Source: an uncultured Eubacteriales bacterium
GTDB lineage: Bacteria > Bacillota > Clostridia > UBA1381 > UBA9506
Assembly: GCA_949299615.1 (NCBI GenBank)
Contig: CASGBM010000005.1
Location: 1 to 36,216 of the forward strand
Reading direction: 5' to 3'
DNA length: 36,216 nt
Part shown: piece after piece, positions 7,421-33,387 of the stretch
Layout of the letters: every line of letters starts with the position of its first letter
Numbering within the stretch: position 1 is the first letter of the stretch
Translations under genes and position numbers: made by a program
Notes under the pieces: generated by a model
What the model was told of the DNA's origin: nothing
The model's database searches: none
What the model saw: only the letters and a program-made list of their open reading frames with translations

Positions 7421-8296
7421 TTATAAAAGTTGTAATACATCGGCAAGCTTATCCACCATATGCGTGCAAAGGGATTCCACCCCTGCCTGCTGGATATTGC
7501 CGTCCGTCAAACCGATAGGCGCAACACCCGCCAGCAAAATAGAAACAACTCCGGCGGAACTGTCTTCCAAACCTATCACATGGTGCCTGTTTTCAAACGG
7601 GATTCCCAGACCTACGCGCATCGTTTCTGCATACAGCCACGGATGCGGCTTGGGCGCAAGTTCGCCGAGAGTGCCGACGCGTCCCTTACCCAGAGGATAT
7701 CCTGCGGTAATGATGGAATCATAAAAATCAACCGGGTCACCCATGCCAAGCGTTTGGAAAGCGGATATAATTTCCGGCATAGCTTTTCTGTAAAGGCCGC
7801 TTGTGACAAGGCCGATTTTTATTCCTCTGCCTTTTAATTCCAAAAGAAAATCCTTTAAGCCTTCTGCTGGGGTAAACGCCCCTTTTCTGCCGCGTCCGGC
7901 AAGAATTTCTTCCATTTCATAATCTGTGATTTCATAATAATGGTTTCTAGCTTCCTCTACCGTTTTTTCGGGGCAGTATTTTTTGATGCAGTACTGCAAA
8001 TGCTCGCTGACACTATGGCCGGAGACAAATGGAAGATCTGCATCTTCCAGTTCAAATTTTGGGTTTCCCATCATTTTCGCAATCGAAGACTGGATAATCC
8101 ATACCCAAAATTCTTCGCTCTTTACGCTGGTACCGTCTAAATCCATCAAAACAGCTTCCACTGGGTGTTCAATTTTCACTTCGTGCAAAGGATATATGGC
8201 AGGATAGCCCATATCGGATTTTACTTCGATATACTTTCCGCTTTCATCCTCTAAAATATCAATTTTTCCGTCTTTCGGCGTCCATATTTTTTTCAT
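7421..8296 (-). CDS. HAD superfamily hydrolase (beta-phosphoglucomutase/phosphatase-like)
   Basis: A 291-residue cytoplasmic HAD protein. Motif I is D52-L-D-G-T56 with Asp52 as the expected nucleophile; motif II is GLVTSGLYRK; a PKPHPWLYAE segment supplies the conserved Lys; motif IV is GLEDSSAG. The helical cap between motifs I and II places it in subfamily I. About 45 residues precede motif I, longer than in most relatives, and include a LEDESGKYIEVKS hairpin. The ATG overlaps the GH38 stop as ATGA, so it is translated with the mannosidase-like protein and probably acts on a sugar phosphate made from the imported glycan. The substrate cannot be told. It is the last gene before the terminator at 7365-7401. 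Confidence 0.85.
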   Translation of the reverse strand: MKKIWTPKDGKIDILEDESGKYIEVKSDMGYPAIYPLHEVKIEHPVEAVLMDLDGTSVKSEEFWVWIIQSSIAKMMGNPKFELEDADLPFVSGHSVSEHLQYCIKKYCPEKTVEEARNHYYEITDYEMEEILAGRGRKGAFTPAEGLKDFLLELKGRGIKIGLVTSGLYRKAMPEIISAFQTLGMGDPVDFYDSIITAGYPLGKGRVGTLGELAPKPHPWLYAETMRVGLGIPFENRHHVIGLEDSSAGVVSILLAGVAPIGLTDGNIQQAGVESLCTHMVDKLADVLQLL

Positions 8297-10965
8297 TTTA
8301 GTTTCACGCTCACAATCTTGTTCGGTTCTATTTTTCCGTCAAAGGCACCCAATTCTTCCTCATTGAGATTTACTTGTGTGCCCAACAGTGCAACCGTTTT
8401 TGTCTCCTCGGTCGGATTAAACATTCTGACAATCGTTTCTTTTGAATCGCACGCCTGCTTAACCGCAGATACAACAACTCCTTCAATTTTCAAAAAGCTC
8501 TTGGAAAGAGGCAGTTCTTTTCCTTCTCCCTTGCTGATTTGAACAGACTTAACCGGCGCGTTAAAGCGTTCTGCTGCGGCAAACATATCCTTTTCAAACG
8601 TCAGCGCATATTCATAAGTATGTTCGCCCAGACTTTGTCCCCCGTCTTCGTGCAGGAATTTGCCGGCGCTTCTAAACTCTGTACAAATAATGTTTTTTAC
8701 GCAGCGCATGACAGAAACTGCCAGCGTGCCGCAATCGTTGTTTATGCCCTCATATTCGCAAAACGCATTATGCACAAGCCCAAGATCGCCGCGCTTTACA
8801 AAATAACCCATAGGAAGCGTCTGCATTTCCGGATAGAATTTCCCGTCTTTTGCCACCGGCCGCCGATCCACTCCAAAATGTCCGGCGCTTTCAACAAAAT
8901 TCGTATTTTCCCCGCTGTCAAACAAGATGCGCAGCCTGTGATCCTTTACGGTATTTAAAATTTTTACTTTTACATCCACTTGTTTTGCATCCTGCGTCAG
9001 CGTATAATAAACGGTCAGCGGCATTTTCCGCATGGCTTCGCTTCTCCCATCCAGCGTGCTTTCTTCCGGGAGCAGCCAGTCAATTTTAACGCCGATTGTT
9101 GCAGAAACCGGACCGTTTTCCTCTGTCCAGATCTGCGCCTTTTCGCCGAGCGAAGTGTAAATCCGGTTTTTATAAGGCGGATAATAAATCCAGTAATCAC
9201 CGGCATCGCCGGCATCTTCAAAATAATTGAGTCTGCGGAAAGTTTTTCCATCGGCTTTGCGCAGAACATCAATCGTACCGTTTTCGTTCACCGTTGCTTT
9301 TAAATATTGGTTTTCCAGCGTGTTTGCAGACTTTGCAATCTCTTTGCCTTCTGACGTCCGTATATCCTGCCAGAAAATAGCTTTCCGGTTAAAGCTTTGC
9401 GTTTTGACAATTTTTAGCACTTTATATCCCATAGCAGGAATCTCATTGACCTTTACAGCAATTTCAAAACGGTCTACAAAAAACGGATATGGCCTTGAAT
9501 GCAAAGACGAGACCGGAAGCTTGACCTCTTTGCGCGACAGGATCTGTTTCTCCAATTTTGTTCCGTCAACATCTAAAATGTCAAAATCCCAAACATTATC
9601 CCTCTGCGGCAGATCAATAAACAAACGCAGCGACTCGCTTCTTGCAAATGGAAGTGTATTAAATACGGTAATTGCACAATCTTCCGCGTCAAATCCAGAC
9701 ATATCTATTTTTCTTACAATCGCCTGGCACGCCCGGTCGCACAGTACCTCGCTGATTTCCAGCGCCTGGTTTAAATTATTTATAGTATCCGCAACCGTTT
9801 TATCCTGTGTTACGCCGTTAATACTGTCATGCGGATGGGAAAGCAGCAAAAATTTTTCCGCCAGTTCAAAAAATGCATCTTCCTCAATCCCTGACATAAA
9901 CCGCAGCGGCTCTGCCATTTTAAAAAGTGTATTTTCTGCCTTTTTATTCAGCTGCTTAATTTTCGGACGCGTTGCCAACGCATTTGCGCTGCATTTATAG
10001 GTGGGTCCGTCGCGCAGTTCCCCAACCACAGTTTTTAAATCTTTAGACAGATAATGCTCTTTTGCCAATGCGGCAAACTCCTCTAAACTGCAATGCTCAA
10101 ATTGAATGTCGTCATAAAGCGCATTCATTTTTTGAATCAGTTCACTGATTTTGGGCTGTGCTGTAGTAGAATCGCTGCCGTCAAACAACGCGAGCATTTC
10201 CTGATCCACGCTGTCTTTCATAGCGGCAATCGCAACATCAACCGAAGGCTTTATGTATTCCTCATGAATCTGTTCATCATTATTTAATTTGTGAAAATCA
10301 TTCCAGTATCCGTTGGTATCCGCGCGGTGATATACAAACCCATGTTTTCCCCAGGCAAACTCATATTCATCTGAGTTATAGTCCAGCCCTGTCATAATCT
10401 TTAGATAGGCATTCATAAAAAAGTTAGCGCGCGCATGCTCACCCAGCCTCGTCGCCAAAATTTTTGAGCCGTCCGGCGCTTCCCAAATAAACTCACAGTT
10501 CGGCGCTCTGTCTTTTGAAACATTTTTTGCAACCACACAAAAATCCAGTCCAAATTGTTTGTATATCTGCGGAAACTGCGCTGTCTGTCCCCATCCAAAG
10601 CTCTCATAAGCTACCTTTGTGCATTTCCCCAGACGCTCTGCCAGGCGGGTCCCTTTTAAAAGGTTTCTAACCAGGCTTTCTCCGCAAACCGGATATAAGT
10701 CAGGCAGTGTGTACCAAGGACCAACTTCCATCCGCCCTTCTTTAATATACTTTTCCACTTTTTCGCGGTTTTGCGGACGTACTTCTAAATAATCCTCAAT
10801 AATAACTGTCTGTCCATCTAATACAAAGGATTTATACTCCGGCTGTGTATCCAGTATTTCTAGCAATTCATCCATCATATTGCACAAATACATCCGGTTT
10901 TCCCACAGCGGATATCTCCATTCTCTGTCCCAGTGGGTATGAAGCACCAGTTTACCCTTTTTCAT
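8293..10965 (-). CDS. GH38-like alpha-mannosidase family protein
   Basis: 890 residues, no signal peptide. The N-terminal HTHWDREW (9-16) gives zinc ligands His11 and Asp13, and SHPHDSINGV (376-385) gives the His379-Asp380 site, as in GH38 alpha-mannosidases (retaining, zinc-dependent). The middle helical domain and C-terminal beta-sandwich region bring it to normal bacterial family length. The segment that normally carries the catalytic Asp (D-x-F-G, nine residues before Pro-Gln) reads ESFGWGQTAQFPQ (121-133): Glu121 in place of Asp, with two extra residues. This may mark a divergent subfamily or a changed activity. A GGGGA ribosome binding site precedes ATG 10965. Predicted to trim imported oligosaccharides in the cytoplasm. 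Confidence 0.88.
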   Translation of the reverse strand: MKKGKLVLHTHWDREWRYPLWENRMYLCNMMDELLEILDTQPEYKSFVLDGQTVIIEDYLEVRPQNREKVEKYIKEGRMEVGPWYTLPDLYPVCGESLVRNLLKGTRLAERLGKCTKVAYESFGWGQTAQFPQIYKQFGLDFCVVAKNVSKDRAPNCEFIWEAPDGSKILATRLGEHARANFFMNAYLKIMTGLDYNSDEYEFAWGKHGFVYHRADTNGYWNDFHKLNNDEQIHEEYIKPSVDVAIAAMKDSVDQEMLALFDGSDSTTAQPKISELIQKMNALYDDIQFEHCSLEEFAALAKEHYLSKDLKTVVGELRDGPTYKCSANALATRPKIKQLNKKAENTLFKMAEPLRFMSGIEEDAFFELAEKFLLLSHPHDSINGVTQDKTVADTINNLNQALEISEVLCDRACQAIVRKIDMSGFDAEDCAITVFNTLPFARSESLRLFIDLPQRDNVWDFDILDVDGTKLEKQILSRKEVKLPVSSLHSRPYPFFVDRFEIAVKVNEIPAMGYKVLKIVKTQSFNRKAIFWQDIRTSEGKEIAKSANTLENQYLKATVNENGTIDVLRKADGKTFRRLNYFEDAGDAGDYWIYYPPYKNRIYTSLGEKAQIWTEENGPVSATIGVKIDWLLPEESTLDGRSEAMRKMPLTVYYTLTQDAKQVDVKVKILNTVKDHRLRILFDSGENTNFVESAGHFGVDRRPVAKDGKFYPEMQTLPMGYFVKRGDLGLVHNAFCEYEGINNDCGTLAVSVMRCVKNIICTEFRSAGKFLHEDGGQSLGEHTYEYALTFEKDMFAAAERFNAPVKSVQISKGEGKELPLSKSFLKIEGVVVSAVKQACDSKETIVRMFNPTEETKTVALLGTQVNLNEEELGAFDGKIEPNKIVSVKLK

Positions 10966-11103
10966 GGTTTTTCCCCTTTCATTCTTGTTTTTGATAATTT
11001 TATCACAATCGGAAAATAATAGTAAGAGTCAATATAAATTTTCCTGTGTCAGCAATATTTTAAATACTTTATTTTATTTTTGTCTGATTTTTCCTTACGA
11101 AAA
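10966..11103 (-). other. 138-base AT-rich gap with an inverted repeat upstream of the GH38-like gene
   Basis: No gene is seen. The stretch holds a TGATAA-N2-TTATCA inverted repeat (10992-11005), close to the start of the GH38-like gene, and a TTGACT hexamer further upstream on the minus strand without a well-spaced -10 element. It may hold an internal promoter and operator, but the evidence is weak. No terminator hairpin for the preceding gene is visible. Confidence 0.35.
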
Positions 11104-13230
11104 TCATTCTTCCTCATTTGCATTTCCTTTAAAAATAACATCTACAACAGAAATTCCTGCAGGCGGTATCTTCATAACAAAGCCTTTTGCTTCATGCATT
11201 AATTTTCCGTCAGCGGAACAATCTACTGCCATAGATCCATCCGCCAGCAAAAGTTTTAGAGGTTGTGCAGGAAAATCACTGGTATTGTGAATTTGACATA
11301 TTTCGCGATTCGTATGGATTAGAACATCTTTATACTGGGAAAAGCAATCATTTTCAGCAATATAACGAACTCTGCCTCCGCTCATACGATAAACCGTTAC
11401 CTGTTCATCTGAGCTGCTTTTGCCCGGAGCTCTTGTGACCGCGCGCATCAAACGTGCACACGCTTGAACAAACTGTTCGGATGCCTCCCGAAATAGAAGA
11501 TCAACCAGCCAAACATCTGGATCGGGGATATAGCGCGGTTCTCCTTTTAATGGATGATCCACCTGCGCCTCTGCCAGCGGCAAGGTTACATCAGCATAGT
11601 CTAAATAGCCGATATTTGCCGCACCGACGCACATCCGATAGTCCTCACGCACCACTGCCGGATCTTCAAAATATATATCTGCTTTTTTACCCGGAATCTG
11701 AAATTTCTTTGCAGATAAGCTGGTATAGATGATAGGTCCCCCTTGGTAATCAGCCAGAGTTTTCAGTTCCTCTTCTGGAAGCAGATCCGCGAGCGGGACA
11801 AAAATTGCCCCTTTTGCGCGATGCAGGTTTTCAATCCGCACCACACCTCCAATTTTTCCGCCGCATTTGGACAGTTCCGCTACAAATTTATGGGCAGACC
11901 AGCGGCGCGTTTCCATGTATTCTGGCAAAAACTTATCCATCATGGCATCTGACCAGACAAGAATCGGCGAAACCGATCCGCTGGCTGTTTCTTCAAAAAC
12001 TGCTGCATATTTTTCCCTTAAAATTCCCCATTCTTTTTTATGCAGCGCATCCGCAAGGCAGACAAAAAAGCCGTCTGACGCGCGCGAAATTTGTTCCTCT
12101 CCATAATAAAGTTTGGAAGAAAGAATTTGAATTTCTCGTTCATTTGCGCAGGGAATGTGATTTAAAATTGAAAGCTCCTCTGTGGAATCTTTCGCAAAAT
12201 TAATGGATAATATTTTTACATTCGGCGCGTATGCTTTCATAATCATCGGCGTTTGCATATATTCATGAATTCGGTAAGCCGCACCGGATGCATCACAAGA
12301 ATGCACTGCAGTCGCTTGATCTTCCACACAGATAGCATCGACTCCGGCACGTTCCAAACCCTTATAGTCAATTCCATAACGGTAAATGGCTTCAAACGGT
12401 TCACTCGTCCAAGAATTGTTCACCATCACCTTTTTCCCGTCTGCATGAAGGCCTTTGCAGAGCTTTGCAAAAAATTGTTCCCAGCGGCGGCTGATAAACC
12501 GAATCCACTCAGCACGATAGTGATACCAAATATACTGTGTTCTCCCCTGCAGGCCAGCGCTTTTAGAATCTGTAAGCGGCAGTGTAATTTCCGACGGAAG
12601 GGAAATGCCTGTCATTTCTACAAACTGCCCTATGAGGTCATCTGAAAAATCCCCGCTGTTTAATGTAGAATTCGGCGGACAAAATCCATCAGACAGGTGT
12701 ACGCCGTCAATTCCGTAATCCCTCAGTGTTTTCCGCGCCATTTCTACAAAATAATCCTCAAAATAGGTCCCATCGTCAAACCGTTTTAGAGCATATAAAT
12801 TATGCGTGCCGCCATATCCCTGCATAATCAATTCCGGATGCTGCAGCAAAAATTTTTGCGTGCTGCTCTGACCAAACCAGGTCGTCTGATCCGGAGTATG
12901 GTTGCCCATCACTCCCATATATGTCTCAATTCCATTCTTATGCAGTTGCCCTGCTAACTCTTTCAAATTATAATTTGTCCAGGGCTGAACCGAGCGCAGC
13001 TCGTTTCTAAGGCTTCCATAATAATTGCAGTAGTCCTGAGGAAACGTATATTCCTCCGCCATCCCCTTATGCAAGTTGATAATGTCTGCATTAAAGGCAA
13101 AAAGAGAGATGGCGCTTGGGCGAAACCCTATTTTTTCAAGGTATTCTTCTGCTCCGCATCCGGGAAGATCTCGGTCAAACCCTACCAATGGGGTCCAAAG
13201 CGCCGCTTCTCCGTGTTTTAGTTCCATCAT
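11104..13230 (-). CDS. Putative TIM-barrel glycoside hydrolase-like protein, family not recognised
   Basis: 708 residues, no signal peptide. The first ~380 residues read as a beta/alpha barrel: YMGVMGNHT (~104-112), DYGIDGVHLSDGF (171-183), KVMVNNSW (267-274), AGVDAICVEDQA (295-306) and KILSINFAKDS. Asp181 and Glu303 are plausible strand-end acids. Residues ~415-560 look like an alpha/beta domain (IFVPLADLLPEEELKTL, GGPIIYTSLSA) and the end like a beta-sandwich, an order like that of GH42 beta-galactosidases, although no GH42 signature was recognised. ATG 13230 (or 13227) overlaps the stop of the upstream gene, with GGAGG ten bases before it. By context it is probably a cytoplasmic glycosidase of the locus. 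Confidence 0.5.
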   Translation of the reverse strand: MMELKHGEAALWTPLVGFDRDLPGCGAEEYLEKIGFRPSAISLFAFNADIINLHKGMAEEYTFPQDYCNYYGSLRNELRSVQPWTNYNLKELAGQLHKNGIETYMGVMGNHTPDQTTWFGQSSTQKFLLQHPELIMQGYGGTHNLYALKRFDDGTYFEDYFVEMARKTLRDYGIDGVHLSDGFCPPNSTLNSGDFSDDLIGQFVEMTGISLPSEITLPLTDSKSAGLQGRTQYIWYHYRAEWIRFISRRWEQFFAKLCKGLHADGKKVMVNNSWTSEPFEAIYRYGIDYKGLERAGVDAICVEDQATAVHSCDASGAAYRIHEYMQTPMIMKAYAPNVKILSINFAKDSTEELSILNHIPCANEREIQILSSKLYYGEEQISRASDGFFVCLADALHKKEWGILREKYAAVFEETASGSVSPILVWSDAMMDKFLPEYMETRRWSAHKFVAELSKCGGKIGGVVRIENLHRAKGAIFVPLADLLPEEELKTLADYQGGPIIYTSLSAKKFQIPGKKADIYFEDPAVVREDYRMCVGAANIGYLDYADVTLPLAEAQVDHPLKGEPRYIPDPDVWLVDLLFREASEQFVQACARLMRAVTRAPGKSSSDEQVTVYRMSGGRVRYIAENDCFSQYKDVLIHTNREICQIHNTSDFPAQPLKLLLADGSMAVDCSADGKLMHEAKGFVMKIPPAGISVVDVIFKGNANEEE

Positions 13231-15359
13231 AAAGATTCATCCTCCAATATTTTTTGCAGTACAATCCGATAGTCGGAAAGCGTTTTGACAATAAACGGCG
13301 TATCCAGCTCGCCGCGGTATGCTACGGTGATGATTTTTGCTGTTGAATCTACGTGCAAATCCATTTTTACCGTGCGCCAAGCAACATTTTTTACAGACAC
13401 GGTTTTCAATTCTCTCGGTATGTTGGGGGAAAGCAAAATTTGATCTCCTCTGGGATCGTATCCCAAAAAACCAAATAAAATGGCACACATTGGAAGCTGA
13501 GATTCAAAGAACTCCGCCGTAATGCCTATGCAGCCACCGTCTCCCTCCCCTTGCAAAACAAGCCCGCGATTGTGGAAATAACTGCGGTAACCGCCTTCTT
13601 TGCACACATCATCATACCAATCTAAAATTTGCTTCAGCCTCTCCCACGCATTATCCGCACCATACTGCCTGATTCTAAGCATTAAATCAAAAAACGAAAC
13701 CATGAGGACACATCCGCCATCTTGTAATTCTGTGCCAAACGGCAAATCTGTTCTCTGATACCACAGCAAATAATCCTTGTTTTTTTTTGTGGAAATCAAC
13801 GGTGCAAAACGATAACGGTATATTTGAGCCCCTTGTGCATCATCGCCTTCTACGGTTCTTACTCCGCTAATCCAATCAAGAACAAGTTTTTCATGTTTGT
13901 CATACGCGATTCCGGAGTATAAAATTTCTAAATTTGCCATGACGTTCGCATTGCGCCATCGGCGTCCGGACAAATCTATGCTTGCATAAAATCTGCCGTT
14001 TTCCTGATCCCAGAACAACTGGTTAAATTGTTTTTTCACCTTTTCGGCATGTTCCCTTAAAGCAATTGGATCCAACGCTGAATACTCATTCTCCGCGCCC
14101 CATTCCGGATGCCGGCAGACCATTTCCTCAAGCTCCGCCATTTTTAGAACCGCTTGATAATAATACGCCGTGCAATAGCTGTCATAGCCCCCATATGGCT
14201 GATTGTCCATCCAATTGCTCGTAAGACCTGCTCCTTTTTTACGGATTTCATTTCCGTATTCGTCCCGTAAAACACCGCTGCTGCCATCATGCCCGACCCA
14301 AGTCGTTTTCACAACTAATTCCTCTAAGGTATGATGCGTATACTGAAACGCCGTCAGCGCCATGCGCATTTTATGGATATTAAACCGCAAAAACTCCAAA
14401 TCTCTCGTGGCGTTAAAGTACGCACAGCAACCTTTGAGGTATTGGACATTATTAATATTGTGCCGGGAATCTAATTGCGTAAACACTGACAAAATGTGCA
14501 GTTTTCCTCCCGTATTTTGATTGCCGAGGCAAATTCTAATCCGGCGGATCCTGCCATTCCACATAGGATGCTTAAACAGTGGAATCATTGCAAAAGCGTG
14601 GTCTTCATAATCTTTTTTTCTCTGCAGGCAATTCATTTCCGGACACCGGGAAAAATACATTCGCTGTTTTTGCGTGTCATTTTCTTCTGCTTCGCGCAAC
14701 CATTCTAAATAAGGCTCATGTTTGCCCACGTTTTCTCCGCACCAGCGAATTTGTAAAAATGGGGCGCAAAAGGTATCAAACGATACCGCCGGCAGCTCTA
14801 TCCATGCATTTTTTTCTGTTATTTGCAGGTTTAGTCCGGTTTCATCTATTTTCATTCGGCGCAATCCGCGATAGGAAAAGCCAACATCGTCATTCAGCTT
14901 TTCCGGCGCATAATACTGCGCCTGCGCAAAAAAAGTAAAAATCCAGCCAACTCCTACATTTTCCTGTGTATAATATGGAAAAGGCCACCCCCGGTTATGA
15001 GCAAAAAATACCCCTTGTTTTGTTTCTATGTAGCCATCCGAATCCAACCTCCGCGCAAGCAAGGATTGTCTCCACGATTCCCGCAGGCGGGGATAAATCC
15101 TGTCTGTTTCCGTTCCCTGCCAAAGTTCCGCTTCGCAAAGCCATCCATCCCAAAGCGTTGCCTTTGCGCCCGACGGAAGCTCCGGATATTTTGGAAAACC
15201 TTTTTCCCCATCAAGCCAATCATCCCATTGTGGTCCATATGGGATTGTGTGTTGCCACAAAAGGCGTCTGGCAAGCTGAGAATATCTCGCCTGCGTACCC
15301 AGCTCAAATTCCGGAAAATCTACCGGAGGATTTTCCGGCTTATCTGCATTCCGATTCAT
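13227..15359 (-). CDS. Six-hairpin (alpha/alpha)6-barrel glycosidase-like protein
   Basis: 710 residues, no signal peptide. A mostly beta N-terminal third is followed by a helical toroid with blocks seen in six-hairpin glycosidases: TTWVGHDGSSGVLRDEYGN (353-371), NWMDNQPYGGYDSYCTAYYY (382-401), NGRFYASIDLSGRRWRNANV, and ELQDGGCVLMVSFFDLMLR (from ~556). It is related in layout to GH63/GH78/GH95-type enzymes, but the exact family was not recognised. The ATG at 15359 with GGGGGAAG is chosen over an ATG six codons upstream that lacks a ribosome binding site. It starts 21 bases after the discoidin gene and ends overlapping the TIM-barrel gene, so the two are probably made together. Confidence 0.6.
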   Translation of the reverse strand: MNRNADKPENPPVDFPEFELGTQARYSQLARRLLWQHTIPYGPQWDDWLDGEKGFPKYPELPSGAKATLWDGWLCEAELWQGTETDRIYPRLRESWRQSLLARRLDSDGYIETKQGVFFAHNRGWPFPYYTQENVGVGWIFTFFAQAQYYAPEKLNDDVGFSYRGLRRMKIDETGLNLQITEKNAWIELPAVSFDTFCAPFLQIRWCGENVGKHEPYLEWLREAEENDTQKQRMYFSRCPEMNCLQRKKDYEDHAFAMIPLFKHPMWNGRIRRIRICLGNQNTGGKLHILSVFTQLDSRHNINNVQYLKGCCAYFNATRDLEFLRFNIHKMRMALTAFQYTHHTLEELVVKTTWVGHDGSSGVLRDEYGNEIRKKGAGLTSNWMDNQPYGGYDSYCTAYYYQAVLKMAELEEMVCRHPEWGAENEYSALDPIALREHAEKVKKQFNQLFWDQENGRFYASIDLSGRRWRNANVMANLEILYSGIAYDKHEKLVLDWISGVRTVEGDDAQGAQIYRYRFAPLISTKKNKDYLLWYQRTDLPFGTELQDGGCVLMVSFFDLMLRIRQYGADNAWERLKQILDWYDDVCKEGGYRSYFHNRGLVLQGEGDGGCIGITAEFFESQLPMCAILFGFLGYDPRGDQILLSPNIPRELKTVSVKNVAWRTVKMDLHVDSTAKIITVAYRGELDTPFIVKTLSDYRIVLQKILEDESL

Positions 15360-15380
15360 AATCTTCCCCCTTATCATTTG

Positions 15381-23737: not shown

Positions 23738-23749
23738 GTGCTACCTCCT

Positions 23750-25510
23750 TTATTGAGCGTCCTGTAGGTCGGCGCCGCTATCAAACAGGTTAATTAGCCG
23801 TGATATGATAACTGCCGCCTGCGCTCTTGTAGTGCCGGTTTGCGGTCGGACAGTGCCGTCTTCAAAACCATTGATAATGCCCGATTGCGCTAAGCTCATC
23901 ATTGCCTGATGTGCATAGGGAGATATTTCTTCAGAATCAGCAAAATTAAAATCCTGTGTTTGATCCGTTAAGGCTCCTTTGGATTGGCAAGCTCGGTAAA
24001 TCATAACTGCCATATCCTGCCTGCTGATTTCGTCTTGTGCGCCAAACGTTCCATCATCTCTTCCAGTAACAAAGCCATACGCATATGCTGCAGAAACATA
24101 CGGATAAAACCAGTCGTCTTTCAAGCAATCTGTAAATTCTACTCCTTGTGCATTTGTGGAAATTTCAGAAGCCAGCACGAGCAATTTTGTAAATTCCGCC
24201 CTTGTAATTTGCTGGTTGGGATAAAATTTTCCTTGATCACCGGATATAATTTTTTTCTCATACAGTGCTGTAATATCCGCTGCTGCCCATTCGCAATCGT
24301 ATAAATCAGAAAAAACAGCTGTATCTTCCTGATTTTCTAACTCCGGCACAGGTACTGGCTGTGTTGTCGGCCCTGTCGAAACCGGAAAACTTTGACCGCC
24401 GCCGGAGCTGCTGCTTGAGCCGCCGGAACCGCCGCCTCTGCCGCCTTCATCTCCTTTTTTATTCTCCGCAGCTAGCTTGACTGCTGTTTCAAAAGCATTT
24501 GCAGCCTCAGAAGGTGATGACGCACCCGTCATTTGCTGCACAACTTCTACCAATGTTACATCATTTTTCTCTGCTAAGGTCAAATCAATCGAAAATTCTT
24601 GTGCATACTCTTCCAATGCATCTGCTTTTTCTTTCAGCGTGCCGCTGTTAATATAAGTAAGACCCAGCGCAGTCCGAATTTTTTTCGTTTGTTCAAAAAG
24701 GGATGTTTGTACACCATCGCGCAGCTGAACAAATTCTTTTGCAAACTCCTGCCGCATGTCTTCTAAAGATTCTCCCTCTCTCCCGGAGAAGGCATATCCT
24801 TGTGTTTCCTCTCCTATGACGCTGTTATATAGATCCATTTTTTCCAGCACTTCTGTCTCATCGCCTGTATTTAAAGCATCCATCAGCACTACAAGACTGA
24901 GCGTATCATTAAGTTCTTTAAGACTAGCAAAAGCAGTTGGATATTTTTCTTGCCTAATATTCTCAAACAAAACTTCAAAATCTTCAAGTAACCGCGCTTC
25001 TTCCAGTGCTGAAAGATCATTCCCGATAATAATTTCTTTTTCAATGATATACTCATCCAGCTTATTTAAAATTTCGTCGCCGGTTGCAGCGTGGATTTCC
25101 TTCAGGGCTGTTTCCAATTCGCCTTCTGCCGCCATATAAATTTTTTGTGTATCTTCTGAAATAGTCCTTCCCTCTGCCGATGTCTGTATTGTGCGATAAT
25201 AATACATGCCGCGCGGTGCATCTGAAGGAATTTTTAAAACAAAAGAAAAGCTTTTGGGACCATTTGGAGTAACCGTTTCTGTTTCTAATTGATAAAGTGC
25301 CTGCTGGACTGTGTCGTCTGTTAGATTGTCAAACGTGATCTCAGACCCCTCTACCGGTCCTAATACGACAAATGTTACAAAGTATACAGACGAATCTTCC
25401 ACTGTTACTGTAACAGTTTTTTCATAGTCCTGCTCTGTTCCGTGAACCGGAATAAGCCAAACGCACAAAAGCAGACAAAAGAGCATTATTGTGATTCCTC
25501 TCTTTTTCAT
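23750..25510 (-). CDS. Secreted protein with three C-terminal SLH domains
   Basis: 586 residues from ATG 25510, which gives a clean signal peptide (MKKRGITIMLFCLLL, cut near VHG). A longer start at 25549 would bury that peptide. The N-terminal ~330 residues start with an Ig-like beta part (EKTVTVTVEDSSVYFV) and continue as acidic helices rich in Leu, Glu and Ala. A Gly/Ser linker near residues 355-385 leads to three SLH repeats: FSDLYDCEWAAADITALYEK, FTDCLKDDWFYPYVSAAYAY and FADSEEISPYAHQAMMSLAQ, each with a TRAEF/SRQDM/TRAQA-type motif. It has no enzyme domain and is likely a wall-anchored scaffold or adhesin of the locus. It lies 12 bases before the discoidin-SLH gene. Confidence 0.85.
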   Translation of the reverse strand: MKKRGITIMLFCLLLCVWLIPVHGTEQDYEKTVTVTVEDSSVYFVTFVVLGPVEGSEITFDNLTDDTVQQALYQLETETVTPNGPKSFSFVLKIPSDAPRGMYYYRTIQTSAEGRTISEDTQKIYMAAEGELETALKEIHAATGDEILNKLDEYIIEKEIIIGNDLSALEEARLLEDFEVLFENIRQEKYPTAFASLKELNDTLSLVVLMDALNTGDETEVLEKMDLYNSVIGEETQGYAFSGREGESLEDMRQEFAKEFVQLRDGVQTSLFEQTKKIRTALGLTYINSGTLKEKADALEEYAQEFSIDLTLAEKNDVTLVEVVQQMTGASSPSEAANAFETAVKLAAENKKGDEGGRGGGSGGSSSSSGGGQSFPVSTGPTTQPVPVPELENQEDTAVFSDLYDCEWAAADITALYEKKIISGDQGKFYPNQQITRAEFTKLLVLASEISTNAQGVEFTDCLKDDWFYPYVSAAYAYGFVTGRDDGTFGAQDEISRQDMAVMIYRACQSKGALTDQTQDFNFADSEEISPYAHQAMMSLAQSGIINGFEDGTVRPQTGTTRAQAAVIISRLINLFDSGADLQDAQ

Positions 25511-25588
25511 GCTGTGATCATCCTTTCCGTGAATTTGCGCCTCCAGCACATTTCTTCATCTAAAGCAATGGCATATAGCGTAAAATTT

Positions 25589-26467
25589 TTAACCCTTAAC
25601 CGAACCGATCGTAATTCCTTTGACAAAGTATTTCTGAAAAAACGGAAATATCAAAACCATTGGTCCAGCTGCAATGACGCAAATTGCCATGCGTACAGTT
25701 TCGTCCGGCAATGTCATTGAGCCCATCATTGTCTTGGCTGCACCGGAAGATTGAGTAAAGAAAGTAACACTTTCCATTATCCGGTACAAAAGATACTGAA
25801 GCGACACAATTTTGTCATTATCAATATAGATTAAAGACAAAAACCAATCATTCCAATATGCCAGCATAATAAACAATGTCACAACTGCAATTCCTACCTT
25901 TGATAAGGGAATTACAATTCGAAAAAAGATTGTAAACTCTGAAGCACCGTCTAATTTTGCAGATTCTATCAGCGAAATCGGTATTGTCATGAAAAAGGTT
26001 TTCAGCAAAAATACGTTCCAGGCGCTGACCATCATGGGTAAAATTAGCACTGCCAGCGTATCTTTTAAATGCAGATACTGAGAAAGCAAGATATACGTTG
26101 GCACCAAACCGCCGTTAAACACCATGGTTATAAAAATGTACAACGACAACGGTCGTTTCATTTTATAATCCGGACGGGAAATTGGATACGCAAGTCCAGC
26201 CGTTAACAGCACTCCTAAAATGGTTCCGATTGAGGTTACCGTAAGCGTTACGCCGTAAGAGCGCAAAATTTGTTGCGGGTATTCGAACACATACCGGTAT
26301 GCCTCAAGGGAAAATTTAAGCGGAATTAAACTGTAACCATAGTTTGAAATTGTTGCTTCATCTGAAAATGAAATTGCAAGCACCAATAAAAATGGTAAAA
26401 GGCAGCAAAGTGCAAGCAGAATTAGCGGGATGTGAACCCACAAGTTTTTAATCGACTTTGTCTTCAT
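25589..26467 (-). CDS. Carbohydrate ABC transporter permease, LplC/MalG-type
   Basis: 292 residues with six predicted membrane segments. The cytoplasmic coupling loop of binding-protein-dependent permeases is visible as IESAKLDGASEFTIFFRIVIP, matching EAA...G.........P. The end, ending in KYFVKGITIGSVKG, is characteristic of the LplC group. The ATG at 26467 with GGAGG eight bases upstream is preferred over the extended reading from 26515, which would overlap the LplB-type gene. It pairs with the upstream permease to form the import channel. Confidence 0.95.
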   Translation of the reverse strand: MKTKSIKNLWVHIPLILLALCCLLPFLLVLAISFSDEATISNYGYSLIPLKFSLEAYRYVFEYPQQILRSYGVTLTVTSIGTILGVLLTAGLAYPISRPDYKMKRPLSLYIFITMVFNGGLVPTYILLSQYLHLKDTLAVLILPMMVSAWNVFLLKTFFMTIPISLIESAKLDGASEFTIFFRIVIPLSKVGIAVVTLFIMLAYWNDWFLSLIYIDNDKIVSLQYLLYRIMESVTFFTQSSGAAKTMMGSMTLPDETVRMAICVIAAGPMVLIFPFFQKYFVKGITIGSVKG

Positions 26468-26480
26468 CTTACCGCCCTCC

Positions 26481-27446
26481 TTACAATAGCGCATTTTCTG
26501 AATTGATTTTTCCAACTACCCAATTTGTAATCATAACTAAAGCAAACCCTATAACCGACTGGAAGAAACCGATTGCTGAAGAAATGCTTACATCACCGGT
26601 CTGTTTCAACACTCGGAAAATGTAAGTATCAATAACATCCGTCACTTCATAGAGCATGCCCGAATTGTTCGGTATGTAATAAAACAACCCAAAGTCTGCA
26701 CGCATAATAGAACCGATGGCAAGTATCGTTAAAATAATTGCAGTTGGTTTAATCAGCGGCAGTACAATGTAACGGATAATGTGAACTCCCCGGCAGCCGT
26801 CAATCTTTGCTGCATCATATAACTCCTGGTCAATGCTCATGATGGCACCATAATATATGATTGTCTGAAAGCCTATGTTTTTCCACACATGGGCAAAAGG
26901 CAAAATCAAAAGCCACGGCTTTAGTTCTTGATACCAAGCAACATTCTCTCCGCCGAACATTTTTACGAATTGATTTAAGATGCCTTTATCAAATTCGAAC
27001 AAGGTTTGTGCCATATATCCCGCAACAACCCATGAAATAAAATATGGAAGAAAAAACGTTGTCTGATATATTTTTAAGCTGATTTTCCGTTTTACCGAAT
27101 CCAGCAAAAGGGCCGTTGCAATCGCGCAAACCATTAAAAGCAGGATAAAAAACAAGTTGTACCCTAAGGTATTTCTGATAATTCGAAATGCATCCTGAGA
27201 CTTAAATAAAAACTCAAAATTGCGAAGCCCTACCCATTCACTTCCCCAAAAACCCAATCTGTTATTGTAGTTTTTGAATGCAATTAAAATTCCGGCAATC
27301 GGAATATAATTAAATATAAACAAAACCAAAATTCCCGGCAATGCCATTATTGACAAATCAAGCGTGGAGCGAAGCGATAAACTCCGGTTTTTTTTCTGCG
27401 ATAACCGTTTTATTTTTCCCGATGTTACTGCAGCGCTGGATTTCAT
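26481..27446 (-). CDS. Carbohydrate ABC transporter permease, LplB/MalF-type
   Basis: 321 residues, six predicted membrane segments after a basic N-terminal tail (KIKRLSQKKNRS). The EAA loop appears as YDAAKIDGCRGVHIIRYIVLP. LplB-group marks such as FNYIPIAGILIAFKNYN and GSEWVGLRNFEFLF are present. ATG 27446 overlaps the stop of the upstream discoidin gene by four bases. No ATP-binding subunit is encoded in the window, so the pair probably uses a shared MsmX/UgpC-type ATPase from elsewhere, as is usual for Lpl importers. Confidence 0.95.
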   Translation of the reverse strand: MKSSAAVTSGKIKRLSQKKNRSLSLRSTLDLSIMALPGILVLFIFNYIPIAGILIAFKNYNNRLGFWGSEWVGLRNFEFLFKSQDAFRIIRNTLGYNLFFILLLMVCAIATALLLDSVKRKISLKIYQTTFFLPYFISWVVAGYMAQTLFEFDKGILNQFVKMFGGENVAWYQELKPWLLILPFAHVWKNIGFQTIIYYGAIMSIDQELYDAAKIDGCRGVHIIRYIVLPLIKPTAIILTILAIGSIMRADFGLFYYIPNNSGMLYEVTDVIDTYIFRVLKQTGDVSISSAIGFFQSVIGFALVMITNWVVGKINSENALL

Positions 27447-28717
27447 TGGACATTTCCTCCTTCATCAATTGTAAAGTCTCCGCACAACTGATTCATCTCC
27501 AGATAACTATCCACCAGAACTGCTTTTATCTTACATCCTGACGGCAACGTACCCGAAATTCCTGTTAAGTCTACCATAACCGTACCGTTTCCTGTAATTT
27601 GCTCTGTTTTTGCTCCACAGGCGATAACCTTCCCCTCTGAATCCGTAATTAGTGCGATAGCAGTGTAGTTTTTTGTGCTGCCTGTTCCGTTATAAACGGG
27701 AATGGATAAGCTTGCCGGTGTTTTTCCCTCTAAAGAGTTAATTTCGCCGGCAGCATCCGACAGCGTCCACCGGCCATAATTTTCTTCCGTCTGTGCAAAG
27801 ACAGAAAGTTCCATTAACGGCACAAAATCTTCTGTCACACAAGTAAATCTAATGTACCGATATTCCGAACCATCTACGTCAAAGCCATAGGAAGATAAGG
27901 CTACAAGCGGCTCGTTAAATTGCTTCAAAAGCACCATGTCATCGGGATCTGTAAATCCTGGCGTGTTTGAAGCATAGATTTGAATTCCCTCGCTTCTGCC
28001 TCCGCCCGTAGTATAATCATAAGTAAATAATTCAACACGGGAAATAGGAAATTTTTTACCAAGGTCTATGTCAATATAAAACGGCGGATATCCACCTTGT
28101 ATGGAAGCGGGCGTTGACACGCTGCCATCTACAAGCGCTGCTGCCGGAAGATTAAACGCATTATTACCGCCTGTGACCTTTTTGTCTTTTGCCACATTTA
28201 CCAAACCCACTTGGCTCTCCGGCACAAAAACTTTAAGATCTTTAATTCCTATTGTCCCATTGATTGCATGCGTAATAACAAGTACGCCAGAATATTTGTT
28301 GTTCGGGAACATCTTCTCAACTTGAAAGTCAGTCCGAACGGACATAGGTTCGTCCGGACCACATGTATGGAGCACATCATATCCTTCAGATGCATTACTT
28401 TTTAACAGCCTGATTTCAAAGTCTTTATCCGATCCAGGATACATTAAAATAGAAAGAGAATTTATTGTCATGCTATAAGCAAATGTCAACCGGAATGAAT
28501 TTTCTGTATTTGGACTATATCCATTTACCCATGCCGAATCATCATTGTCATCTACTACATATTCCGGCAATAATCCCAATGTGCCTCCTCCATAAGTTGA
28601 AGAAACCATAATATTTGACTCAGGCGCAATATTAATAAAATTTTCCTCAGCTCCAACGAACCCAACACCAGAAGCACTGAGAACTAAAGTCAGCAAAATT
28701 GCTACAATTTTTTTCAT
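27443..28717 (-). CDS. Secreted protein with two discoidin domains
   Basis: 424 residues: signal peptide 1-23 (MKKIVAILLTLVLSASG, cut near VGA-EE), discoidin-like modules at about 25-160 and 170-310 (AALVDGSVSTPAS, YIDIDLGKKFPISRVELFTYD, YRYIRFTCVTEDF), and a C-terminal Ig-like module (330-424) of the same kind as in the two triple-discoidin proteins. No catalytic domain. Probable extracellular glycan-binding protein. It precedes the permease gene with a 4-base overlap, which ties its expression to the importer. Confidence 0.78.
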   Translation of the reverse strand: MKKIVAILLTLVLSASGVGFVGAEENFINIAPESNIMVSSTYGGGTLGLLPEYVVDDNDDSAWVNGYSPNTENSFRLTFAYSMTINSLSILMYPGSDKDFEIRLLKSNASEGYDVLHTCGPDEPMSVRTDFQVEKMFPNNKYSGVLVITHAINGTIGIKDLKVFVPESQVGLVNVAKDKKVTGGNNAFNLPAAALVDGSVSTPASIQGGYPPFYIDIDLGKKFPISRVELFTYDYTTGGGRSEGIQIYASNTPGFTDPDDMVLLKQFNEPLVALSSYGFDVDGSEYRYIRFTCVTEDFVPLMELSVFAQTEENYGRWTLSDAAGEINSLEGKTPASLSIPVYNGTGSTKNYTAIALITDSEGKVIACGAKTEQITGNGTVMVDLTGISGTLPSGCKIKAVLVDSYLEMNQLCGDFTIDEGGNVQ

Positions 28718-28848: not shown

Positions 28849-31800
28849 TTACTTTACCATTACATGCAGTTGAGTATCCGGAGTATACACACCATAATAC
28901 CCCTGTCCCTGTGTGTTGTTTGTATCACAGAGTGCATTGATTGCAGTTTTTCCGTTTACTTGTATTGCCACACGTTTTTTACCGCCTTCTGGGACATAAT
29001 TGATACCAACTTGAATCGGTTCTTTGAGATTGCTAATGAAGTCTGCAGTATTAATGATGTCATCAAACACTTTTTCCTTATCATAGGGGCTGCCAAATAA
29101 AATTTGTTTTACGCCGCCTTCTATTCGGTACAAATACATCACGTCTTTCGCTATAACAAATTCAAAATAAGAATTTACGGCATCCAGCCCTTCCGGCATC
29201 AGCTCTCCATTTACACTGTCGAAAACAACTCTTGTACCATAAATTGTATCAACACGGTCCGCTCTCATCGTCAAATTAATAGAATTGGTCTGTCCACCCT
29301 GCCATAGGTATGGTTTGTCTGATTTTGCAAACAGCAATTCTGTCCCGTCTTTCACTGCTTCATCACCAAACCAATTCCACCACGTATCCGGTTCGGTAGA
29401 ATCCGATTGATAGCGGCTGACACGTATAGTCCAAACCTGACTTTTACAATGATTTTTCACGACTGCCTGAACCGGATAGGTAAAGTCTATAGGCTGGCTA
29501 AAATCGGGGAACAGTTCCGCGCCATCTGAAATTATCGCGTTTGCTGTCAAGTTTGTTAAATCAACACTTTCATCAACCATGATCTCTATGGTATGGTTTC
29601 CTTCATTAATTACTGCCGGAGCATCAATGCCATCCAGCCGAAAAGCTAATATGTCCGCTTTTAAAATGGAATGGTCAAATTCGCTGATTGCCTGTTCCAG
29701 CGTCCAAAGCCGGGTATATTCCTCTACAGAGCTGTCAGAAGCAGATGCAATAGCAGCTTCAAACGTATTTTTAGCCTCTTGCGTACAGGTGCCTAATTCT
29801 GTTCCAATCGGTGTTTCCTCCAGTAATTTCTGCGCAGCGGCAATGGTATCCGAAAGAGAAAGTCTTTGGAAGGAGTTTTCAAACTCGCGCATGGCAACTT
29901 CCAGACGATAATAACGTTCTGCCTGTCCAATCCCTCTTGCATCCGTTGTTCTCTCCTGCACCGTCATCTCGCTCAATCTGTCAGCAAGCATAAGTGCGGC
30001 ATCCGGGCTATATTGCCCCGGCAAATCACCGTAACGATCTGTTTCCAAACAGGTTTCAGCAATGGTTGCCATTTTTTTCGTCCACTCCGTATATGTTGTG
30101 CCGTCAAAGTGATAATAGAAAGAACTGTAATTATCCATTCGTTCTCTGCCATAGTATGCCTGCGCATCCGGCACCTGCTCTTTAATTGCCTGATATTCCG
30201 GACGAAGACCGGCATTGTCCATAATTGCTTTTGCTTCCGGCTGAGGATCCCCCGAAATAAAGGTTTTTACTGGATCACCGCTGCAATTGGTCCCAAGCAA
30301 CGTCACAGTCGGCGAATTGGCATAGGTATTGGTTACATGGATGTCCTGCTGGCTTTGATTCCAAATAAAATACACATTTGCCGAATTTTCTACCACGTTA
30401 TCATGAACCGTAAAATCCGATGAACCATCGTCAAAATACATAGCAGCAAACGGTCCATTTTCATTTTTAATATAGTTTCCATAATATTCACTGTTTGCCT
30501 GACGTCCTAATGTGTAAATTCCACCGCCGTCATGCAATTCCATGTTATAAGTATCTACCAGGTTCCCAACAATTTTTGTATTGGCTAAAGTACTTGGCAG
30601 ATTACTCCAGCCCCAGCCAATTGACATACCGCTGTAAGGAACGTAATAAATTTCATTGTGCATAAAAGAAATGCTGTCTCCATAATACATTCCTATCCCT
30701 GCACTACCATAATAATAATTTCCGGTGCGTGTTACGTAGTTATCTGCCACCATGATATTGCGGCACACATCTCTTTTAAACCATTCTATATCTTTAGTAT
30801 AAATCGCAAGTTCCGTAATCCGGAAATCCTCTACTTCTGTTTTGCGAATCATACAATATTTAAACTTTTCATTGGTGCCCGGCTTAAGAGAAAGAGATTC
30901 TCCCTCGTAGCTGGTTGCGCCCTGCCGGTGGACAACGGTATATGTATTAAAATCCGGATCATTGGATAGCAGAATCTCAAAATTGCGTTTTTGGGGAACC
31001 TCACCGGTATCCGCGCTTGTCGTAATTACAATTTCGTCCACACTAACCGGAATGTCAAATTCTAATTTGAAAAAAGATTTGCGGCCGACATATACATCAT
31101 TAAGCGGTACCCATCCATCCCCTGTTCCGTCATAAATCATTCTGGCATATTGTCCGAAGTTTCCAATATCCGACGGGGTAAAGGTAGAACGCAAAACCAT
31201 ATTTTGTCTCCAGCCCGCAGGCTTTTCTTCCTCGACGGAAGAATGGTCTGGCATTCCAATGCTAATTCCGCTTTCGCCGGTATCATAAACTGCATTTCCA
31301 ACAATGTTGCAGTCCGACACATTGTAATGCAGTCTAAGTGCCGCCGCCCCCATGCCAAACAGGACACAGCCCTGCATCGTAATATTTTTTGCATTTAAAA
31401 TGTCAATCGCGCCTTGTGTTGTGTTTTCTTTATAGCTTCTTCCAACGAAATTATCTCCCTGTTGTCCATGGCTGTAACCGCCAACTTCCGCCGGAAGGTT
31501 AAATGCTGCGTGGGCAAAGCGAAGACCTTCAAAGCGGATATTTTCAACCAGCTCCCCATCTCCGCCGTCAACAATCATGATTTTTTCCAACACCGGTGCA
31601 TAAACTTCCGCCGTCGTCATATCCTCGCCTTCACGCGGAATATAAAATAACTCTTTGGTATCACTGTTAAAATAATATTCTCCCGGCATATCCAAAAACT
31701 CAAAGGCATTTTCAATTCGGAAACCAAAATCCCAGCGGGCTGCATGCCCCCATTTGGGAACAGACGCTACACCATTATACTGCGGCTGCTGCATGATCGC

Positions 31801-32478
31801 AATTACGCGCGAGGAATCATTGGGATCTGGAATGATTTTCTCCAGCATAGCGCTGTTTCCCTTCCAGCCTACGCCCCAGCGGAAATCTACTTCGTCCGGA
31901 TTTTCCAAATCAGGAAGCACTCGTTTATCAAAATAAATTCCGTCATATTGATAACCAGTGTTTGGATCATCATAGTCTCCCAGACCGGTCACTTCCCTCT
32001 CTGTTGAAGCGCGATTGACACGGGTATCATTGACATACAATTCGCGCATCCGCTCAAATCCCTCAGCCTTTGCCTTCCACATTCCATTCCCAACCGGCTC
32101 AAAGCCCTCAATTTTCTGTCCGCCGGATATCAATGGGTAACCTTCGCCGCGGTACACTACTTCATAACCACTATTTCCAGAATCCTCTTTGCCAAACTGC
32201 AACGGTTCCTCTAATTGATACACACCTTCTAAAACAACAACTTCAATATTACCGGTCATCGGCTGTGCTGTCAGCTTCTTTACCGCTTCCTGTGCTTCTT
32301 TTATAGAAGAAAACGGATGGTTCTGCGAACCATCGCCGTCCGGCGATGCTGAAGCAGAAATATAAAAACGCTGCTGAAGGTTTTCCGTTTCTTCATAAAT
32401 AGATTCTTCTCCGAAAATTGTGCTGCTGGAACCAATCAACATCAATGAACACAGCAGCAAACTCATGATTTTTTTCAA
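28849..32478 (-). CDS. Secreted right-handed beta-helix enzyme, GH141-like, with inserted discoidin domain
   Basis: 1209 residues with a signal peptide (1-23). The N-terminus has YISASASPDGDGSQNHPFSS, an EGVYQLEEPLQF strand and an EDSGNSGYEVVYRG...PLISGGQKIEGF pattern (97-127) typical of GH141-type beta-helix proteins. Helix coils at ~305-415 and 567-735 carry HDGGGIYTLG (649-658) and YFDDGSSDF (682-690), likely site residues. Residues ~420-566 are a discoidin-like insertion. Later come a helical FIVAR-like part (~850-950), a DUF5018-like Ig domain (~960-1060) and a beta-sandwich-like end. Start: TTG 32478 with AAAGGAGG eight bases upstream; the in-frame ATG four codons later is badly spaced. 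Family placement is by pattern only. Confidence 0.75.
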   Translation of the reverse strand: MKKIMSLLLCSLMLIGSSSTIFGEESIYEETENLQQRFYISASASPDGDGSQNHPFSSIKEAQEAVKKLTAQPMTGNIEVVVLEGVYQLEEPLQFGKEDSGNSGYEVVYRGEGYPLISGGQKIEGFEPVGNGMWKAKAEGFERMRELYVNDTRVNRASTEREVTGLGDYDDPNTGYQYDGIYFDKRVLPDLENPDEVDFRWGVGWKGNSAMLEKIIPDPNDSSRVIAIMQQPQYNGVASVPKWGHAARWDFGFRIENAFEFLDMPGEYYFNSDTKELFYIPREGEDMTTAEVYAPVLEKIMIVDGGDGELVENIRFEGLRFAHAAFNLPAEVGGYSHGQQGDNFVGRSYKENTTQGAIDILNAKNITMQGCVLFGMGAAALRLHYNVSDCNIVGNAVYDTGESGISIGMPDHSSVEEEKPAGWRQNMVLRSTFTPSDIGNFGQYARMIYDGTGDGWVPLNDVYVGRKSFFKLEFDIPVSVDEIVITTSADTGEVPQKRNFEILLSNDPDFNTYTVVHRQGATSYEGESLSLKPGTNEKFKYCMIRKTEVEDFRITELAIYTKDIEWFKRDVCRNIMVADNYVTRTGNYYYGSAGIGMYYGDSISFMHNEIYYVPYSGMSIGWGWSNLPSTLANTKIVGNLVDTYNMELHDGGGIYTLGRQANSEYYGNYIKNENGPFAAMYFDDGSSDFTVHDNVVENSANVYFIWNQSQQDIHVTNTYANSPTVTLLGTNCSGDPVKTFISGDPQPEAKAIMDNAGLRPEYQAIKEQVPDAQAYYGRERMDNYSSFYYHFDGTTYTEWTKKMATIAETCLETDRYGDLPGQYSPDAALMLADRLSEMTVQERTTDARGIGQAERYYRLEVAMREFENSFQRLSLSDTIAAAQKLLEETPIGTELGTCTQEAKNTFEAAIASASDSSVEEYTRLWTLEQAISEFDHSILKADILAFRLDGIDAPAVINEGNHTIEIMVDESVDLTNLTANAIISDGAELFPDFSQPIDFTYPVQAVVKNHCKSQVWTIRVSRYQSDSTEPDTWWNWFGDEAVKDGTELLFAKSDKPYLWQGGQTNSINLTMRADRVDTIYGTRVVFDSVNGELMPEGLDAVNSYFEFVIAKDVMYLYRIEGGVKQILFGSPYDKEKVFDDIINTADFISNLKEPIQVGINYVPEGGKKRVAIQVNGKTAINALCDTNNTQGQGYYGVYTPDTQLHVMVK

Positions 32479-32514
32479 GTAGAACGCCTCCTTTAGATTA
32501 TCAGAACAGCTTTT

Positions 32515-33387
32515 TTATAGAAAAATAATTGATACTATTACCATACAAATTCCTATCCATTTTCTCAAAGTCACTTTTTCTCTTAAAACCAAGGCTGAAT
32601 AAAGCGTTGTCACCACCATTAATCCGCCGGACTGAATTGGATACTGTACCGCTGCATCAATACTTTTTGACACAATCATTGAAAGTTGATTCGCCGTACA
32701 TATGCTAACCCCTGTAACAAGACACGGAAAGATAAATGTCCGAAAATGAATTTTTTTTCTTTCTCTGCCTTTTAAGCGAAAGAACCCATACATTCCCGCG
32801 TTCATCAGCGCTGCAAAACCAAACATAAAAAAACTGAATTGAACTACTGTTGTCTCGGGATAACGAAATGGTTGATATTTTTGTACAAACATTGATGCCC
32901 CATTTAACAAAAATACCATGGATGCCAAAACAACAAATTTAAGACTACACTTTATTTTCTTTTCTTCCTTTTCATATACTACCAAAAACAGCGCCGAGAA
33001 CAAAAACAACAAAGCAATTCCTCTTTTTAAGTCAATCGATTCTGAAAAAACAAGCGGGCCCAGCAAGCAAGGAATCGCAACCGCGCCTGTTGCGAACATG
33101 ATACAGACCGAAAGCGGTCCGGAGGCCATCGCCTGATATAAAAAGAAATTACAAAAGACAAAACATACGGCTCCAGCAATTGCCAATAAAATAACTCCTG
33201 CATTTGCCTGCGGCAACTGCCCTGAAACAATGCTACTAATCAGATATACAATGGATCCTCCGGTCGTCCAAACCACGCCAAACAAAAACATAGAAGGCAT
33301 ATTGCCGGAATAATGCTGACTGAATACTTTTCCGAATACCTGATTGGTACCTGTAATGAAAACAATTAAGAATAAAATCAAATACAC
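32515..33387 (-). CDS. EamA/DMT-superfamily transporter
   Basis: 290 residues with about ten membrane segments in two five-helix halves, as in drug/metabolite transporters; short basic loops (EKEEKKIKCSLK, RLKGRERKKIHF) separate helices. The C-terminal half ends with ALVLREKVTLRKWIGICMVIVSIIFL, the classic EamA repeat ending. The start is GTG at 33387, with GGGAGG nine bases upstream; no ATG is available until residue 30, inside the first loop. It is the first gene of the glycan locus, right behind a promoter. The substrate cannot be inferred; it may move a sugar or an end product. Confidence 0.85.
   Translation of the reverse strand: MYLILFLIVFITGTNQVFGKVFSQHYSGNMPSMFLFGVVWTTGGSIVYLISSIVSGQLPQANAGVILLAIAGAVCFVFCNFFLYQAMASGPLSVCIMFATGAVAIPCLLGPLVFSESIDLKRGIALLFLFSALFLVVYEKEEKKIKCSLKFVVLASMVFLLNGASMFVQKYQPFRYPETTVVQFSFFMFGFAALMNAGMYGFFRLKGRERKKIHFRTFIFPCLVTGVSICTANQLSMIVSKSIDAAVQYPIQSGGLMVVTTLYSALVLREKVTLRKWIGICMVIVSIIFL

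Follow-up and report, generated by a model that had tools for sequence, protein, structure and literature searches.

The β-mannan loci of Roseburia intestinalis are reportedly Gram-positive polysaccharide utilization loci of gut Firmicutes. The GH38 proteins are usually annotated as α-mannosidases, and the GH65 phosphorylases are paired with β-phosphoglucomutases in operons. In SpGH38 from Streptococcus pyogenes, the zinc ligands are His13, Asp15, Asp125, and His351; Asp125 occupies the nucleophile position, and Asp232 is the acid/base (PMC2815779). In the GH130 family, basic residues bind phosphate in the phosphorylases, at a place where carboxylates stand in the hydrolases (PMC4599007). GH141 members include α-L-fucosidase, endo-xylanase, and endo-fucanase (PMC12786026, PMC5593877), and residues D523 and D564 of BT_1002 are essential (PMC12786026).

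The locus examined here is probably a modular Gram-positive glycan-utilization locus that includes a non-classical GH38-HAD cassette. The window, that is, the whole stretch of DNA that was analysed, is the complete contig C5 of 36,216 b, from a genome of 2.39 Mb in 208 contigs (97.7% complete). The sequences of its relatives are mostly from Clostridia MAGs of the ruminant gut. Fourteen open reading frames, g1 to g14, follow each other on the minus strand from 33387 to 7421, or 13 if the EamA gene g1 (32515-33387) is excluded. The features are as follows.

33439-33410, minus strand: promoter-like site 5' of g1, TTTACA-18-TATAAT, a consensus match only (11/12)
32515..33387, minus strand: g1, EamA-family transporter (PF00892, E 4e-11)
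28849..32478, minus strand: g2, exported GH141-like β-helix enzyme of 1209 aa (BT_1002, 5mqp, E 7e-36)
27443..28717, minus strand: g3, exported discoidin (F5/8) protein of 424 aa (PF00754, E 3e-8; hydrophobic leader)
26481..27446, minus strand: g4, LplB-type permease (PF00528)
25589..26467, minus strand: g5, LplC-type permease (PF00528; the frame opens at 26515, likely start 26467)
23750..25510, minus strand: g6, exported SLH protein with three SLH repeats (PF00395, E 6e-37; the frame opens at 25549, likely start 25510)
20501..23737, minus strand: g7, exported protein of 1078 aa with an N-terminal discoidin domain (PF00754, E 3e-10)
18985..20466, minus strand: g8, LplA-type binding lipoprotein (DUF3502, PF12010, E 7e-23; lipobox-like SAGC near the N-terminus)
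17099..18937, minus strand: g9, exported protein of 612 aa with multiple discoidin repeats (PF00754, E 2e-27)
15381..17099, minus strand: g10, exported protein of 572 aa with three discoidin repeats (PF00754, E 3e-30, 3 stretches)
13227..15377, minus strand: g11, predicted cytoplasmic protein of 716 aa (no Pfam family at cut-off; GH65-C at E 0.016, sub-threshold)
11104..13230, minus strand: g12, predicted cytoplasmic TIM-barrel enzyme of 708 aa (AF2 model and fold matches)
8293..10965, minus strand: g13, GH38-family protein (PF01074, E 1e-27)
7421..8296, minus strand: g14, HAD_2-family enzyme (PF13419; 4-b overlap with the end of g13)
7403-7369, minus strand: intrinsic terminator 3' of g14, a 15-pair stem with a T-tail (shuffles give 0.0)

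Most of the intergenic gaps measure between -4 and about 80 b. Two are wider, 131 b (28718-28848) and 138 b (10966-11103), where internal promoters are possible; the promoter consensus matches inside them are near chance. The preliminary description had placed 13 genes between a promoter and a terminator. The same-strand run and the terminator stand, with 14 frames when EamA is counted, but the promoter is near the chance level, as 1.7 such sites are expected in the region. The genes downstream of the run (DUF4340, recR, methyltransferases, and M16 peptidases) appear unrelated. The divergent feoA-like and feoB genes upstream (33640-35868) have no evident connection to the locus. No Rfam family and no tRNA were found within the window.

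A hydrophobic leader is present at the N-terminus of g2, g3, g6, g7, g9, and g10, and a lipobox-like leader in g8. No signal peptide-like leader was found on g11 to g14, which form, as judged from their sequences, the cytoplasmic set. Capture proteins, importer, and predicted cytoplasmic glycosidases are found on one strand, the arrangement of a Gram-positive glycan-utilization locus. The logic of capture, import, and finishing inside that had been put forward is supported by the surface proteins, the importer, and the leaderless g11-g14. According to this scheme, the SLH- and discoidin-bearing proteins would hold the glycan at the cell surface, g2 would trim it outside the cell, the LplABC importer would take up the oligosaccharides, and g11-g14 would finish them in the cytoplasm.

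The surface genes largely answer to their earlier assignments. The GH141-like enzyme is confirmed by the match of g2 to BT_1002; when the two are compared segment by segment, both catalytic segments (HDGGGIYTLG and FDDGSSDF) contain acidic residues. This match and the two catalytic Asp segments place g2 in GH141; Pfam recognizes a β-helix in g2, the GH141_M model being below cut-off. Residues ~444-562 of g2 form an inserted discoidin domain, with a match (E 3e-10) to the F5/8 domain of g7. The expected number of five discoidin-bearing secreted proteins is thereby reached, with g3, g7, g9, and g10 recognized by Pfam. The LplABC-type importer is likewise found, as the DUF3502 binding protein g8 and the permeases g4 and g5. 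Of the two SLH proteins announced, g6 is certain but g7 is marginal, since its repeats are weak and below the Pfam cut-off; a large further region of g7 is without domain assignment. Fucose, which had been proposed from the GH141-like member, cannot be deduced from a family that spans several activities (PMC12786026, PMC5593877).

Three glycosidase-like proteins and a phosphatase had been described as lacking signal peptides. All four are leaderless, but g11 and g12 belong to no Pfam family at cut-off. The relatives of g11 that were found are partial; from its sub-threshold match, g11 is possibly an (α/α)6 glycosidase-like enzyme. With g12, no PDB profile match was obtained. A fold predicted from its single sequence was discarded (pLDDT 32). 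The AF2 model built from 57 sequences (pLDDT 92.7) combines a TIM barrel with a middle domain and, at the C-terminus, a β domain, and superimposes onto GH42 enzymes with Z values of ~15-16 over ~500 residues. With the barrel alone, the nearest folds are Cwp19 and PgaB (Z 18-20). The likeness to GH42 and GH112 is one of fold, with no sequence match. In total, 163 relatives of g12 were confirmed in genome contigs; the best 80 of them (L095-L174) are from Clostridia, Paenibacillus, Armatimonadetes, Lentisphaerae, and others. The family that g12 represents is broad and absent from Pfam and, according to the model, has three domains in a GH42-like fold. LplBC permeases neighbour its relatives mainly in Paenibacillus/Cohnella. 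Near the best 80 of the 163, g11 was not found and GH38 only as one partial match (L146).

The most unusual feature of the locus lies in g13. It belongs to GH38, with PF01074, PF07748, and PF17677 above cut-off and Alpha-mann_mid below. Its segment YESFGWGQ aligns without gaps in HMMER with YFPDTFGN of 2wyh and 5kbp, so that Asp125 of SpGH38 is replaced by Phe123; g13 thus lacks the Asp that serves as nucleophile and zinc ligand in classical retaining GH38 enzymes. The family assignment made earlier is retained, but the reading as an ordinary α-mannosidase is not, the catalytic Asp being gone. The remaining zinc ligands (H11, D13, and H379) and the acid/base (D265) are kept in all readable sequences. 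Among 43 readable relatives from the order and the class, position 123 is Asp in 13, Phe in 16, and Ser in 14, and the GH38 paralogue of the same genome, on C43, has the Asp. The Phe and Ser types form a single branch of 29 rows in a quick tree (SH-aLRT 92). Basic residues are typical of this clade, R17, R173, R179, and R318, and are missing from nearly all Asp-types. Residue 17 is R or K throughout the Asp-less clade and Tyr in all Asp-types; R179 sits in a segment that most Asp-types lack. No close relative of the Asp-less proteins was found in the 44 genomes behind the g12 loci, where all 13 readable GH38 motifs have the Asp. A search of the open-access literature yielded no report of Asp-less GH38 proteins.

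The Asp-less GH38 genes are linked to the HAD gene represented by g14. Orthologues of g14 (58-66% identity) occur in 24 of the 95 genomes of the order, that of the window included. In the order, a HAD gene lies no more than 200 b away from 11 of the 27 Asp-less GH38 genes, a number that rises to 17 at 5 kb and to 19 at 20 kb, versus none of the 13 Asp-type genes at any of the three distances. The corresponding Fisher values (0.007, 1e-4, and 2e-5) are descriptive, as the genomes are related and fragmentary and the counts phylogenetically dependent; moreover, the choice of Asp-type genes followed availability, and short contigs carry some of the Asp-less ones. The pair extends beyond the order to other families of the class (G388, G197, G273, and G413). 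Exceptions exist in both directions: the HAD gene is present without a detected Asp-less GH38 in G075, G011, and G062, and Asp-less GH38 genes without a nearby HAD are found in G002:C48, G002:C41, G004:C155, and G064:C4, some of these being short contigs; in G002 and G004 the HAD gene is distant or on another contig. A mannose-6-phosphate isomerase gene is present on five HAD loci, a minority (G082, two loci of G036, G048, and G103). GH94 adjoins the HAD gene in G015, G048, G049, and G052, and in L283-L286 a GH94 phosphorylase, the HAD, and an Asp-less GH38 form a conserved triad whose genes overlap or nearly do so. In L321 the HAD gene overlaps a GH2 gene bearing an Ig-mannosidase domain, and in L271 (G066:C174, 3328-4260) the HAD orthologue is broken by an in-frame stop.

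From the loss of the nucleophile, the existence of an Asp-less clade, and the linkage to HAD, we infer that g13 does not act as a classical retaining GH38 hydrolase. The leading mechanism, though a tentative one, is that g13 is an inverting α-mannoside phosphorylase and g14 its dedicated phosphomannomutase. Phosphate, held by the clade-specific basic residues, would take the place of the missing Asp, and the α-mannoside would be cleaved with inversion to yield β-mannose 1-phosphate. The HAD enzyme g14 would convert this product to mannose 6-phosphate, for use by mannose-6-phosphate isomerase. The lost nucleophile, the kept acid/base, and the gained basic residues fit the needs of a single-displacement phosphorolysis, and a HAD gene near an isomerase gene is in keeping with an enzyme that turns mannose 1-phosphate into mannose 6-phosphate. 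The poor resemblance of g14 to β-phosphoglucomutase speaks against a mutase: it scores 21 bits with the curated model, under the cut-off of 189, and matches HAD phosphatases about as well. At a position that we take to be that of the cap histidine of β-phosphoglucomutase, g14 has Trp64, and a PDB profile search gave no match. On these grounds g14 may be a phosphatase instead. No report of an α-mannoside phosphorylase was found in the open-access literature, and GH38 goes unmentioned in a 2022 review of glycoside phosphorylases. The pair suggests a hitherto undescribed route to break mannose linkages. That the whole Asp-less clade is an undescribed family of inverting α-mannoside phosphorylases, derived from a retaining zinc hydrolase and served by a HAD phosphomannomutase, is a similarly tentative extension.

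About as likely as phosphorolysis, and as tentative, is a hydrolysis of a different kind: g13 would act on a mannoside that is phosphorylated or otherwise anionic, with a zinc-bound water or with assistance from the substrate, and g14 would be the phosphatase of the product. The clade-specific Arg residues would bind an anionic group as well, the zinc ligands are retained, and the equal match of g14 to HAD phosphatases is in keeping with this role. In addition, the NCBIfam model closest to g13 is that of mannosylglycerate hydrolase MngB (NF007331, E 1e-119), although the score of 401 bits is far under the cut-off of 1138. However, the locus shows no sign of a phosphate-bearing substrate or of a PTS, and the presence of an isomerase next to the HAD makes better sense if mannose 6-phosphate is the product.

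Comparison with related genomes bears on the coherence of the 14 genes. In the 95 genomes of the order, no relative of g2, g11, g12, g13, or g14 was found in a locus with the full gene order, and about 390 genomes of the class gave the same result for g11, g12, and g14. The conserved 13-gene operon that gene-order comparison in related Clostridia was meant to reveal is therefore rejected, and the parts are separable modules. The surface part is one of them. A second, diverged copy of g2-g3-g6-g7 lies elsewhere in the genome, on contig C81 (L092, G000:C81, 118-9626), in the same order and without the permeases, with identities of 40, 34, 31, and 30%, respectively. GH141, SLH, and g7-like genes are found together on contigs of G002, G057, G085, G088, and G081. 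The surface part is therefore a recurrent module in this bacterial group. LplB-LplC-LplA immediately precede GH141 in G002, G088, and G076. A transposase-like frame (9687-10820) follows the module on C81. The g13-g14 pair is an independent cassette, which in a congeneric species (L202) is found apart from all the other genes of the locus.

It is doubtful that the run consists of two or three transcription units that adjoin without being related, with a GH38-HAD cassette that serves another glycan. The cassette does occur alone (G076) or with different neighbours (G082 and G388), full synteny was not found, and the gaps of 131 and 138 b could separate such units. Against this stand the single strand, the 4-b overlaps, the single clear terminator, and the association of GH38 with GH141, SLH, g7-like, and LplBCA genes in G002; in G012, too, the GH38-HAD pair is accompanied by an SLH protein, a GH141 fragment, and a protein with weak likeness to g7. 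The locus is that of a gut-type Clostridia species and is modular rather than a fixed operon.

The re-ordered cousin locus G002:C48, from another family of the same order, has a GH38 with 57% identity. Its minus strand reads Gfo/Idh - LplB - LplC - LplA - GH141 - SLH - g7-like - GH20C, followed by two discoidin proteins - GH141/discoidin - GH38 - GH94 - GH66-like - PHP, with the divergent genes NahK (4ocu, E 7e-91), NagB/ROK, NagA, and a nucleotidyltransferase. Because hexosaminidase and GlcNAc-catabolic genes adjoin GH38 and the importer, this locus suggests by analogy a glycan with mannose and N-acetylhexosamine. GH20, GH94, and Nag genes are absent from the window itself. The mannose-bearing glycan proposed beforehand gains from this gene set and from the GH38-HAD loci with mannose-6-phosphate isomerase: the substrate most likely contains α-mannose and, by the same analogy, is possibly an N-glycan-like chain of mannose and N-acetylhexosamine.

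The alignment of the clade also bears on two further readings of g13. That it is a GH38 hydrolase with an unrecognized replacement nucleophile is unlikely. Throughout the clade the acid/base persists along with three zinc ligands, as such an enzyme would need, but no carboxylate is both invariant in the Asp-less clade and missing from the Asp-types. Glu121 of g13 was considered as a substitute and rejected, as the clade has E, T, S, or N there; other positions, such as 403, judged from sequence, are E or D in most. A catalytically dead g13, acting as a sugar-binding sensor or chaperone, would account for the lost nucleophile but is improbable, since the acid/base, the zinc ligands, and many other residues are invariant over 30 genes and the linked enzyme is kept.

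The locus is an unusual version of an ordinary kind of system, and its notable part is the Asp-less GH38/HAD cassette. One GH38 clade, found in gut Clostridia, has no longer the residue on which the chemistry of the family depends and is linked to a phosphosugar-type enzyme, and therefore annotations as α-mannosidase may be wrong. If phosphorolysis is the true mechanism, two genes would provide an energy-saving cleavage of α-mannosides of which no description was found in the open-access literature. The pair also offers a way to recognize, in genomes, loci whose substrates may be mannose glycans of hosts or fungi.

Like other polysaccharide utilization loci of gut Firmicutes, this one has an ABC importer with a binding lipoprotein, a surface enzyme, and cytoplasmic finishing enzymes. 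It differs from them by its SLH/discoidin capture proteins, a GH141 enzyme with an inserted discoidin domain, the Asp-less GH38-HAD cassette, and two predicted cytoplasmic proteins outside Pfam. The g2 enzyme resembles the GH141 α-L-fucosidase BT_1002 (5mqp) by its significant match and its acidic catalytic residues, and departs from it by the discoidin domain within the β-helix and a long C-terminal extension. Similarly, g13 shares with SpGH38 (2wyh, PMC2815779) the family, three of the four zinc ligands, and the acid/base Asp; it is set apart by the change of the nucleophile Asp125 to Phe, an added segment (about residues 175-250) in which Arg is conserved, and the HAD partner gene. As in the GH130 mannoside phosphorylases, conserved basic residues replace a carboxylate (PMC4599007). 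In its operon logic the g13-g14 pair is the predicted α-mannose counterpart of the GH65/β-phosphoglucomutase pair, whereas the folds of GH65 and GH130 are unrelated to that of g13, for which phosphorolysis is a hypothesis.
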